Below, piece after piece: positions 2,881 to 16,928 of a DNA stretch of 42,228 bases (position 1 is its first letter; every line of letters starts with the position of its first letter). This stretch comes from Candidatus Parcubacteria bacterium (lineage in GTDB: Bacteria; Patescibacteriota; Minisyncoccia; Phycocordibacterales; Phycocordibacteraceae). The position numbers and the translations under genes are program-made. Below the pieces are notes generated by a model, which did no database searches, was not told where the DNA came from, and saw only the letters and a program-made list of their open reading frames with translations. Where the stretch lies: the NCBI GenBank assembly GCA_021731495.1, contig JAKFXG010000008.1, forward strand, positions 1 through 42,228, written 5' to 3'.

Positions 2881-3276
2881 ATGGACTCGTACTCTTTGTA
2901 TCAAAGTCTTATCCAACCCGCATGGGCGCCACCAGCGTGGCTCTTTGGGCCAGTATGGACGGTGCTTTATATCATCATCGCGATATCCTTTGGCGCAGTC
3001 TTTTATCGTGCATTTACCGCAGGGCTGCCGTGGATGGTTGTTGCGCCCTTCGTCCTCAACCTGATTTTCAATTTCTCCTTCACCTGGCTTCAATTTGGAT
3101 TAAAGAACAATACGCTCGCCGCAATTGATATCCTCCTCGTTCTCGCAACACTCATTTGGGCGCTGGTCGCCATCTATCCGTACATAAAATGGGTCGCTCT
3201 GACCAACATCCCCTATCTCCTATGGGTCTCCTTCGCGACCGTCCTTCAGCTGACCATCACCTATTTGAATAAATAG
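2881..3276 (+). CDS. TspO/MBR-family membrane protein
   Basis: PAWAPPAWLFGPVWTVLY...NFSFTWLQFGLKN...PYLLWVSFATVLQ motifs. Confidence 0.92.
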   Translation: MDSYSLYQSLIQPAWAPPAWLFGPVWTVLYIIIAISFGAVFYRAFTAGLPWMVVAPFVLNLIFNFSFTWLQFGLKNNTLAAIDILLVLATLIWALVAIYPYIKWVALTNIPYLLWVSFATVLQLTITYLNK

Positions 3277-10631: not shown

Positions 10632-10985
10632 ATGGAAGGCCTTACCAACTACGAGAAAGAAATACGCCCATGGGGGGATTTTGAACGCTTTACGCTCAAC
10701 GAGAAAACGACCGTAAAGATTGTCACAGTCAATGCCGGAGAGTCTATCAGCCTGCAGACCCATGAGCATCGCGATGAATTCTGGCGTGTCATTAAGGGCT
10801 CCGGCACTATCCGTGTCGGAGACACGGATACCAATGCGCACGAAGGCGACACATTCTTCACTCCCCGGCATTCGAAGCATCGGGTAGAGGGTGGCCCAGA
10901 GGGGCTCACGTTCCTCGAAATAGCATTCGGTGATTTTGATGAGAAAGATATTACACGCCTCGAGGACCGCTACGGCCGATCATGA
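10632..10985 (+). CDS. Cupin-domain protein (mannose-6-phosphate isomerase type II-like)
   Basis: RPWGDFERFTLNEKTTVKIVTVNAGESISLQTHEHRDEFWRVIKGSGTIRVGD; the start at 10632 sits 6 nt after a TATACT -10 box. Confidence 0.9.
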   Translation: MEGLTNYEKEIRPWGDFERFTLNEKTTVKIVTVNAGESISLQTHEHRDEFWRVIKGSGTIRVGDTDTNAHEGDTFFTPRHSKHRVEGGPEGLTFLEIAFGDFDEKDITRLEDRYGRS

Positions 10986-11674
10986 ACGAGAACTTCAAGG
11001 ACGATGAAGAACTTGCCCACTCCCTCAACGATCCCGCTCTCCGGGCGGAGTATGCGGCGCCGTTCGACCACTATCGCCCCATGTTCATCGTGCGAGTGCT
11101 TGGATCGCTCCTCGTGGGCTCAGGCACTCTTTTCTATGGACGCAAGCCATCCTACGCGAAATTCAAAGCAATAGAGGTCATAGCTCGTATCCCCTACCAG
11201 TCATGGGAGGTCGCGACGTATACCATCCTATCGGCAATGTATGGAAACGAACGCCGCGCTATCAACCTCACCAAATTAAGCGCGTTCAGTCGCATGGCGC
11301 AGGATAATGAGACCATGCATGTCGTCGTCATGTCGCACATTGTGCGGCGTCTCCACTGTGAGAGCTTCCTCCGTCACACGCTCATCCCTCTCCTTTTTTC
11401 ATTCTTCTATTTCTGGACGACCTACCTTCTCTTCCTCATTTCTCGCCGGGCGGCACTTGAGCTCAATTATCTGTTCGAGTCGCATGCGTACGCACAATAC
11501 CAAGAGTTCCTCGACCGTGAAGGAGATCGTCTGCGGCAGACTCCCATCACGTCCGACTTCCTCGCGTTCTATGGGCGAAATGTCCGGAGCGAATACGAAC
11601 TTTTCGAGCTCATACGCAACGACGAACTGATCCATCGTAATCGCTCCCTGCGCGAACTGCCGTCGATAACTTAA
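10982..11674 (+). CDS. Alternative oxidase (AOX)-like diiron membrane protein
   Basis: AIEVIARIPYQSW (cf. AOX LETVAAVPGM), DNETMH (cf. NERMH), NYLFESHAYAQYQEFL (cf. YLEEEAVHTY), RNDELIH (cf. ADEAHH); ATGA overlap with the cupin gene. Confidence 0.72.
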   Translation: MNENFKDDEELAHSLNDPALRAEYAAPFDHYRPMFIVRVLGSLLVGSGTLFYGRKPSYAKFKAIEVIARIPYQSWEVATYTILSAMYGNERRAINLTKLSAFSRMAQDNETMHVVVMSHIVRRLHCESFLRHTLIPLLFSFFYFWTTYLLFLISRRAALELNYLFESHAYAQYQEFLDREGDRLRQTPITSDFLAFYGRNVRSEYELFELIRNDELIHRNRSLRELPSIT

Positions 11675-11696: not shown

Positions 11697-11719
11697 AAAG
11701 ACCCCCACAGGGGGTCTTT
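11697..11719. terminator. Terminator hairpin
   Basis: aaagaccccc-aca-gggggtcttt. Confidence 0.85.
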
Positions 11720-11796: not shown

Positions 11797-12480
11797 TTAT
11801 TTGTCAAGTCCCAAGACTTTAACCGCTCGTTCTAATTTTTTCCGTTTCCGTGGCAAAAACATCCCCGAGGTATCCACAGTATCATACATTACCCGATGTA
11901 ACGCAAGACTGTCGTAGCGACTAAACACGAGGTCGTATCCTCTATTTTTTTTAGATATGTGTCCCCCTTTGATACCGAATCCCATTAGTGTAGTAAGAAG
12001 ATCTTCAAGAAACGAACGGCTCCCGCAGGTAAATATGGTTGTGAAAACCCATATTTTCTTTTTTCTTTCCTTTGCATAATGCTTTTTAAAATAGACACAA
12101 CCATCGCCATCGAAATATCCGCGTACAAAATCTCCTAGATAGGGTCTCGGAACATCCGGAAAACTAATTGTATTACTTTTGTTTTGGATAAATCCAAACT
12201 GTAATAGATCAGCAAACCATTCTTTGCTGCCTATTTGGAGTCTGTACTGAGGTTTCCATACACCTGGGTTTCGGTCTCGTTTTTTTATCTTGTGAGTTGA
12301 GCCGACTGCCTCTTTGATTTCTTTGAGTACGATGCGGTCCGTAATTGTGAATTCGATAAAATGTGCACCACGATTATTCTTAATCATAGAGCCGTCAGCG
12401 GCGAAGAAGCCAAGCACGTATGCCATCTCGGGCGACCATTTTTTGAAGAAGTTGTGGTTCAGCTCTCGATGCATCGGCAT
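11797..12480 (-). CDS. LAGLIDADG-family homing endonuclease
   Basis: MAYVLGFFAADGSM and LGDFVRGYFDGDGCVYF (two LAGLIDADG-type motifs); 227 aa. Confidence 0.92.
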   Translation of the reverse strand: MPMHRELNHNFFKKWSPEMAYVLGFFAADGSMIKNNRGAHFIEFTITDRIVLKEIKEAVGSTHKIKKRDRNPGVWKPQYRLQIGSKEWFADLLQFGFIQNKSNTISFPDVPRPYLGDFVRGYFDGDGCVYFKKHYAKERKKKIWVFTTIFTCGSRSFLEDLLTTLMGFGIKGGHISKKNRGYDLVFSRYDSLALHRVMYDTVDTSGMFLPRKRKKLERAVKVLGLDK

Positions 12481-14507: not shown

Positions 14508-15512
14508 ATGAACATCCATTACTTTTCGGGCGAGCCGTGGGAAGAGAAATATGTGCGCACGAAATTGCAGGGAGAACACATCACCTTTCATGAAGGTCCT
14601 TTCTCCGCATCAGCGGAGCTTTCCGACCCTGATGCGACGGTCCTTTGCACGTTCATAGAATCCCCCATCGGCGAGGCGGACCTCGCCCGATTCCCTGCAC
14701 TCAAGCTTATCGCGACCCGCTCGACCGGCTTCGATCATATCGACCTCGCGGCGGCGAAAGCACGAGGCGTTGCGGTGGCAAATGTTCCTTTTTACGGCGA
14801 GAACACGGTCGCTGAATTCGCATTCGCCCTACTTCTTGCGCTTTCGCGACGCATCATCGACGCTGATGAACGCGTGCGTGAGATAGGTACTTTCTCACCC
14901 GTAGGGCTCCGTGGTTTCGATCTTGCGGGGAAAACGATCGGCGTCGTCGGCACGGGACATATCGGCGCCCACGTTATCCGTATGGCCCAGGGCTTCGGCA
15001 TGAAGGTCATCGGATTTGATGCTTTCCCGAATGCAGAACTTTCTCGTACGCTTGAGTTCCCGTACGTTTCTCTCGCCGAGCTCCTCGCCGCGTCCGACAT
15101 CGTGACGATCCATGTGCCCTATAACGAACACACGCATCATCTCATCAACCGCGAGAATATTGTTGGCATGAAAAAGGGAGCCTATCTCATTAACACTGCC
15201 CGGGGCGCCGTCATCGAAACGCAAGCGCTGGTAGACGCACTTCAGAGCGGCACTCTTGCCGGGGCCGGACTCGATGTGCTTGAAGAGGAGGGAGATCTTG
15301 CTGAGGAAATGAAACTTCTCTCCGCACCGCACCCTCGTGAAGAGGAGTTGCGCATCACACTTGAGAATCACTACCTCATTGCGCACCCGCGCGTCATCGT
15401 GACGCCCCACCTCGCTTTCAACACGACCGAAGCCGTCGAGCGCATCTTGGATACCACCATCGAGAACATACGGAATTTTGCTAAGGGATCGCCCACGAAT
15501 ATCGTCTCTTGA
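14508..15512 (+). CDS. D-isomer-specific 2-hydroxyacid dehydrogenase
   Basis: TRSTGFDHIDLAAAKARGVAVANVP, GVVGTGHIGAHVIRMAQGFGM, INTARGAVIETQALVDALQSG. Confidence 0.95.
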   Translation: MNIHYFSGEPWEEKYVRTKLQGEHITFHEGPFSASAELSDPDATVLCTFIESPIGEADLARFPALKLIATRSTGFDHIDLAAAKARGVAVANVPFYGENTVAEFAFALLLALSRRIIDADERVREIGTFSPVGLRGFDLAGKTIGVVGTGHIGAHVIRMAQGFGMKVIGFDAFPNAELSRTLEFPYVSLAELLAASDIVTIHVPYNEHTHHLINRENIVGMKKGAYLINTARGAVIETQALVDALQSGTLAGAGLDVLEEEGDLAEEMKLLSAPHPREEELRITLENHYLIAHPRVIVTPHLAFNTTEAVERILDTTIENIRNFAKGSPTNIVS

Positions 15513-15945: not shown

Positions 15946-16665
15946 CTAGTACCCTGCAAATTCTTCGAAGCGAATATCGTCGTTGCTCACGCCCGTGTCG
16001 TTCAGCACTGCCCTCATCGCGGTAACCATCGCGGGTGGCCCAGCAAGATAATAGATCGGTGAACTATCCGCGGGTACATGCCGCTCAAGCATAGCCGCAT
16101 CAATGTAGCCTCGCTCCCCTTCCCATGATTGACTCGATTTTCCCATCTCAGTCATCGTTGCGACGAGAGAGAAGTTCCGATTTTTTTTCGAAAATTCCTG
16201 AAGTTCACTGAGAAACACCGCGTCCTCTGGCCGACGGTTCGAGTAAAAAAGAATAATCTTGTGCGGCAAGTTACGTTCAACGGCATCTGCGATCATTGAA
16301 TGAAACGGGGTAATGCCGATTCCGCCGGAAAGGAACACTGCCGGGCGCGCTATGTTCTCATGAAGCGTAAACGAACCGAACGGACCTTCGAAAGATATTT
16401 CAGTACCCTCCGGCATAGTGCGCAAGGTACGTTTGAATGCTGTGTCACGCATACGCGTCGCTATAGCGAGATATGGCTCATGCGGGGCTGTAACAATTGA
16501 GAATGTTCTTGAATTTCCCTCCGCATCCGTCTCAGCAGGATTGATGAGTGTAAGATCAATCGTTTGCCCGGCTTGATACTTAAATCCTTCAGGTTTCTCG
16601 AAGCGAAAGAGCTGCGTACCTTCCGCGATAGATTCTTTTGCAAGTAATTTTGTCGTGTGCATGAT
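15946..16665 (-). CDS. FAD/NAD(P)-binding oxidoreductase (ferredoxin-NADP reductase-like)
   Basis: RTFSIVTAPHE (FAD), FLSGGIGITPFHSMI (NAD(P)), YYLAGPPAMVTAMR. Confidence 0.92.
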   Translation of the reverse strand: MMHTTKLLAKESIAEGTQLFRFEKPEGFKYQAGQTIDLTLINPAETDAEGNSRTFSIVTAPHEPYLAIATRMRDTAFKRTLRTMPEGTEISFEGPFGSFTLHENIARPAVFLSGGIGITPFHSMIADAVERNLPHKIILFYSNRRPEDAVFLSELQEFSKKNRNFSLVATMTEMGKSSQSWEGERGYIDAAMLERHVPADSSPIYYLAGPPAMVTAMRAVLNDTGVSNDDIRFEEFAGY

Positions 16666-16928
16666 TTTGTACAATTTCTACCAATGTACAGTGAGAAATC
16701 AAGCGTCGCAACTTTCTGTTTTCCTAAAACTTGTTGCCCGTGTCGGTACGGTACCCTCCACCACAAGCAATCCAAAGGTTCTTTCGGGGTTCCTCTTCCC
16801 TCTTTAGCTATGGGGGTCGGTATGGGTTGATTTCCAAACAATTAAAGCGCTCTGGCGCGATTACGAACGCGAAACACGGGGGTCGATACCGTACTAGATT
16901 CCGAAGAACTTTTTGAAATGCTAGATGG

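Follow-up and report, generated by a model that had tools for sequence, protein, structure and literature searches.

A probable divergent alternative oxidase in a Parcubacteria genome, with an FAD-linked D-2-hydroxyacid dehydrogenase as candidate electron donor

Alternative oxidase (AOX) is a quinol:O2 oxidoreductase that is insensitive to cyanide and sensitive to SHAM. Its diiron site (E, ExxH, E, ExxH) is of the same kind as that of the diiron hydroxylase COQ7/CLK-1. PTOX of cyanobacteria and cyanophages takes its electrons from plastoquinol. Crystal structures represent the enzyme of Trypanosoma brucei (TAO, here TbAOX; PDB: 3vv9, 3vva, 3w54, 9kun), and Tyr220 of AOX is totally conserved and close to the diiron site (PMC7904559). 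Trypanosomes also offer a precedent for pairing AOX with a glycerol-3-phosphate dehydrogenase (PMC12406258). For CPR bacteria, O2 scavenging without a full chain has been proposed for heme-copper (cytochrome bo-like) and bd oxidases (PMC9166423, PMC5220378), which are proteins unrelated to AOX. Beam et al. (PMC7507113) sought CPR oxygen reductases as members of these two families only, so AOX was not looked for, and a second survey (PMC9166423) likewise searched for heme-copper and bd enzymes. The view that CPR bacteria have no electron transport rests partly on surveys of this scope (PMC7507113). A search of open-access papers yielded no report of AOX in CPR, and we provisionally regard a CPR AOX as unreported so far.

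The DNA analyzed here (the window, a 42,228-nucleotide contig) carries an intact open reading frame, with an ATG start and a TAA stop, whose product is probably a divergent AOX, an iron enzyme turning O2 into water (Table 1). An earlier note on this DNA had read the frame as AOX-like by eye and suggested a search against PF01786. The protein matches this family with 31.7 bits (E = 1.6e-7), above the family cut-off of 22.7 bits. AOX is its sole Pfam match, with none to COQ7, NCBIfam returned no match, and the protein is the single AOX match of its genome. PF01786 is also matched by 25/25 relatives (best E = 2e-11) and by none of the 14 control genomes, which together with the E-value argues that the match is not due to chance.

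Table 1 Features of the AOX region (positions in the window; numbering of residues as in the 230-aa protein)
Feature	Position	Strand	Evidence
Small cupin (mannose-6-phosphate isomerase C-terminal-like)	10632..10985	+	PF01050, 69.5 bits
Gene for a divergent AOX of 230 aa (product assignment probable)	10982..11674	+	PF01786, profile-profile, Foldseek to TbAOX
Hydrophobic helix aa 35-52 (equivalent to AOX membrane-facing helix 1)	11084..11137	+	DSSP of AF2 model, hydropathy
First ligand motif K60..E65 (K60 where TbAOX has R118; E65 = E123)	11159..11176	+	Alignments
Second ligand motif N109-E110-T-M-H113 (= TbAOX N161, E162, H165)	11306..11320	+	Alignments
Hydrophobic helix aa 129-153 (equivalent to AOX helix 4)	11366..11440	+	DSSP of AF2 model, hydropathy
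Third ligand motif E166...Y173 (= TbAOX E213, catalytic Y220)	11477..11500	+	Alignments
Fourth ligand motif D214-E215-L-I-H218 (= TbAOX D265, E266, H269)	11621..11635	+	Alignments
Perfect 10-bp inverted repeat AAAGACCCCC-ACA-GGGGGTCTTT, 3' of AOX stop	11697..11719	+	Read directly
NAD-dependent D-2-hydroxyacid dehydrogenase	14508..15512	+	PF02826/PF00389
Stand-alone FAD/NAD(P)H ferredoxin-reductase-like (FNR-like) flavoprotein, alternative candidate donor	15946..16674	-	PF00175, 77.5 bits

The six ligand positions picked out by eye in the earlier note (E65, E110, H113, E166, E215, H218) all proved right. They align with the diiron ligands of TbAOX, as do N109, D214 and Y173 with its Asn and Asp neighbors and catalytic Tyr, and all nine residues are identical in 38/38 distinct members of the family. 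We infer that the protein binds iron and reduces O2. The two hydrophobic segments noticed at the same time are also real: they span aa ~33-53 and ~132-153 and coincide with two helices of the AF2 model. AF2 models of the window protein (pLDDT 82.8) and of a relative (L013, pLDDT 85.3) were compared with known structures, and the fold matches: the sole confident Foldseek matches of both in PDB are trypanosomal AOX crystal structures. These fill the top 12-13 positions for each model (prob 0.98-1.00, TM ~0.55, range 0.5-0.6), with best E-values of only ~0.01. The HMM match above the cut-off and a fold like that of trypanosomal AOX support family membership.

The protein resembles TbAOX in its ligand set, its fold and its two membrane-facing helices, but the two share just 10-17% identity in structural alignment. 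A 6-residue insertion precedes the NETMH motif (NExxH), where the CPR protein thus has residues that TbAOX lacks, and an N-terminal extension of ~40-50 aa is apparent in the alignment. R118 of TbAOX is replaced by Lys (K60) in 38/38 members and T219 by Gln (Q172) in 34/38. R118 contacts inhibitors bound in the quinone site. We read these replacements as a subfamily difference and not as an exclusion, since R to K is conservative and the residue at T219 is variable among other bacterial AOX/PTOX of the alignment as well. Neither phmmer with the window protein nor hmmsearch with the A2 profile gave a real match among PDB sequences, so the protein is truly divergent; AOX was reached solely through fold and profile-profile comparison. 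Profile-profile comparison of the divergent family with canonical AOX/PTOX gave a probability of 99.4 (E = 5.7e-22).

A scan of GTDB species genomes found 14 loci at 52-82% identity to the window AOX. Their titles name Kaiserbacteria, Nomurabacteria, Paceibacterota, Parcubacteria and Patescibacteria, and one names Flavobacteriales. The latter is a 1.9-kb contig (L015) whose AOX nests among CPR sequences; it is probably misbinned. Within the window's genus, 30/93 genomes match PF01786, 29 of these 30 above the cut-off, and the frames are intact in all 30. A profile of the divergent family found members in 10/387 genomes of the class (families f1, f225, f62), along with a copy from f232 that is far more distant and a fragmentary one from f200. 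Four of 384 genomes sampled across the phylum match AOX: the window's own, two of family f71 and one fragment below the cut-off. This fragment, in an open frame of 139 aa of genome G275, was discarded, as no AOX-like frame was seen there.

In the tree, the 38 distinct sequences form one clade (100/100) on a branch of ~5 substitutions per site. The window AOX most likely belongs to a new long-branch subfamily of Patescibacteria. Cyanobacterial and cyanophage PTOX are closest in sequence style, with the ARxPY motif and a His at the E215 position, and a relative (L005) is 28% identical to Acaryochloris AOX. Unlike PTOX, however, the CPR protein lacks an insertion before the last ligand motif, and a very long branch separates the two. 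AOX of Sphingomonas, Azospirillum and Legionella share the ligand set and fold class but show no close kinship to the separate 100/100 clade. The two f71 genomes (G179, G146), whose matches are far stronger than that of the window's genome, encode canonical cyanobacterial-type AOX/PTOX (L095:3690-4319 (-), L096:5174-5833 (-)). These group with a cyanophage PTOX, apart from the 38-member clade, and the L095 protein is 46% identical to Acaryochloris AOX, which argues for two or more acquisitions of AOX by CPR, with a cyanobacterial source probable for one.

Three other AOX-like proteins came to light alongside these. The f232 protein (L141:1423-2115 (+)) is very divergent (branch length 4.8) and may represent another AOX subfamily; its gene overlaps that of an uncharacterized protein by 8 nt and is followed by a gene for a multi-TM SfLAP-like protein. 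Phage C48C1 (OQ984149.1) encodes a 'hypothetical protein' (L127:2956-3507) that is a proteobacterial-type AOX and groups 100/100 with the Legionella, Azospirillum and Sphingomonas enzymes; other cyanophages carry PTOX. The 'alternative oxidase' of a Chelatococcus sp. CO-6 plasmid (L130:244-903) has Gln and Ala where the alignment places the second and third Glu ligands, and is therefore probably no functional diiron oxidase.

The window's genome comprises 665,720 bp in 30 contigs and is 98.7% complete. Its size, and the titles of its relatives (Kaiserbacteria, Nomurabacteria, Paceibacterota), agree with the CPR-like character that the note had suspected. The absence of respiratory genes, claimed for the window, holds there and largely extends to the genome, where COX1, CydA and an NDH-2-like protein were not found; the genome does, however, encode an F-type ATP synthase a subunit. 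AOX is the only O2 reductase detected in it. NDH-2 was rejected as a donor because the sole strong Pyr_redox_2 protein is a thioredoxin reductase, and no complex I subunit was found among ten proteins of the genome, mostly multi-TM. A TspO/MBR family protein, a heme/porphyrin-linked membrane protein, is encoded in the window (2881-3276 (+), 93.6 bits); heme enzymes are few in this genome.

Across the 93 genomes of the genus, the single-gene, heme-free AOX outnumbers the other two O2 reductases that were counted (AOX 30, heme-copper oxidase 11, cytochrome bd 5). AOX and heme-copper oxidase never occur together (0/93 versus ~3.5 expected; Fisher p = 0.014, kinship ignored), and AOX and bd co-occur in two genomes. 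This prevalence changes predictions of how CPR cells meet oxygen and balance NADH, and it opens the scavenging of host quinones by CPR bacteria to direct testing.

A UbiA-family enzyme is needed for the synthesis of both ubiquinone and menaquinone. Such proteins occur in 18/93 genomes of the genus and were not found in 26 of the 30 that carry AOX, so quinone synthesis is probably beyond most carriers, which would either import quinone or use a donor other than quinol. All 11 genomes with heme-copper oxidase encode a UbiA-family protein, consistent with heme O synthase. The window's genome itself has two short UbiA-family prenyltransferases (204-209 aa; C6:424-1038 (-), C20:761-1390 (-)) that are 89% identical to each other; three other genus genomes that were checked contain no close homolog.

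Clustering of the AOX neighbors yielded one recurrent functional partner, an FAD-linked D-2-hydroxyacid dehydrogenase. This protein of ~550 aa combines FAD_binding_4 and FAD-oxidase_C domains, belongs to the GlcD/D-lactate/D-2-hydroxyglutarate dehydrogenase family and lacks the C-terminal half of YdiJ. Its gene lies directly upstream of AOX on the same strand (~23 nt) in four genomes (G054, G012, G052, G495) and further upstream, also on the same strand (~760-786 nt), in three (G496, G508, G480). In L013 the order is reversed, with AOX first and the dehydrogenase directly downstream on the same strand. Adjacency thus concerns 8/38 distinct AOX genes, seven of them from one part of the tree, and the two gene orders argue for a functional link. 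A full-length homolog with 61% identity is unlinked in the window's genome (C15:4162-5835, PF01565 + PF02913), and another is unlinked in the AOX-bearing G023. None was found in 89% of the AOX-lacking G485 or in 399 kb of the heme-copper oxidase-bearing G039; these four genomes are the ones checked for co-occurrence, and about half of one was covered. The earlier note had allowed for an unusual donor. With quinone synthesis probably missing in most carriers, that suggestion can be sharpened: the best candidate is probably this FAD-linked, lactate-type 2-hydroxyacid dehydrogenase.

The window encodes a candidate for the other half of a shuttle. Its NAD-dependent dehydrogenase, 3 kb from AOX, could produce the D-2-hydroxyacid; it has a 75% identical homolog in G023 and just a 31% identical match in G485. 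NCBIfam matches to this protein (glyoxylate reductase, VanH, D-LDH) are below cut-off, as are all those to the FAD-linked enzyme. We propose, with evenly balanced confidence, a D-lactate/pyruvate-type shuttle that burns NADH with O2. The NAD-linked enzyme would reduce pyruvate, or a similar 2-oxoacid, with NADH to D-lactate or an analogous acid, which the FAD-linked enzyme would re-oxidize. Electrons would pass to a small quinone pool taken from the host or surroundings and from there to AOX, which at the membrane surface would reduce O2 to water without pumping protons. Fermentative reducing power would be drained, O2 removed and NAD+ regenerated, all without a classical respiratory chain. 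The scheme resembles the trypanosomal pairing of AOX with a flavoprotein shuttle dehydrogenase, but the host is a prokaryote without a mitochondrion and usually without quinone synthesis.

The lack of quinone biosynthesis in most carriers could instead mean that this AOX-fold protein dispenses with quinol and, as a peripheral O2 scavenger, receives electrons directly from a flavoprotein, either the FAD dehydrogenase or the FNR-like protein. A dehydrogenase gene that abuts AOX or sits ~23 nt away would suit such a transfer, as would the K and Q that replace R118 and T219, and the insertion and N-terminal extension could serve as a docking surface. We nevertheless consider this unlikely: the AOX fold, together with hydrophobic helices 1 and 4, points to a quinol site that faces the membrane, and we know of no AOX with a protein donor. 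FNR-family proteins are not positively associated with AOX (14/30 genomes with AOX versus 42/63 without), and the FNR-like flavoprotein was rejected as an obligate partner. Quite unlikely, in our estimate, is the more specific proposal that a D-2-hydroxyacid dehydrogenase and AOX form a quinone-independent pair, with the diiron site reduced directly, as the main O2 route in quinone-less CPR. Scavenged quinone is our preferred electron carrier over direct transfer.

AOX might also be a quinol oxidase fed by another enzyme, for example the DAO-family FAD oxidoreductase present in the window's genome (C3:9009), and the adjacency, limited as it is to a minority of AOX genes, would then be incidental. 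We regard this as improbable, since separate lineages showing two different gene orders would be unlikely by chance (crude P ~0.001, post hoc) and the DAO protein is absent from the AOX-bearing G023. A COQ7-like diiron hydroxylase or oxygenase acting on a lipid or quinone, and not a terminal oxidase, appears distinctly improbable. The shared kind of diiron site would allow it, and 4/25 relatives match COQ7 weakly (best E = 4e-4), but AOX is matched by all 25 (best E = 2e-11), Foldseek places COQ7 at E = 2.4 (prob 0.28) and TbAOX at prob 1.00, and most carriers have no quinone pathway to serve. A contaminant contig or a decaying, functionless gene, as a fragmented draft and patchy occurrence might suggest, is largely refuted already by the intact frames in the genus, the invariant ligands and the local gene order of the 42-kb contig, which is kept in close relatives, and we consider its probability very slight.

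The ATGA overlap with the cupin gene is as the earlier note described it, with the cupin stop on the AOX start (bases 10982-10985). Overlap, or a spacing of a few bases, is confined to the closest AOX subclade, and the AOX-bearing G023 has its cupin gene unlinked, so we rejected a general functional unit; the coupling is weak evidence for function and probably incidental. UvrC and Ddl are repeated neighbors and were set aside as housekeeping proteins. The inverted repeat downstream of AOX is a possible transcription terminator; its T tail is short, and a terminator scan did not return it. A free-standing LAGLIDADG homing-endonuclease-like protein is encoded between tRNA genes beside AOX (11797-12480 (-)), and several relatives (L002, L003, L006) have a homolog next to AOX or nearby.
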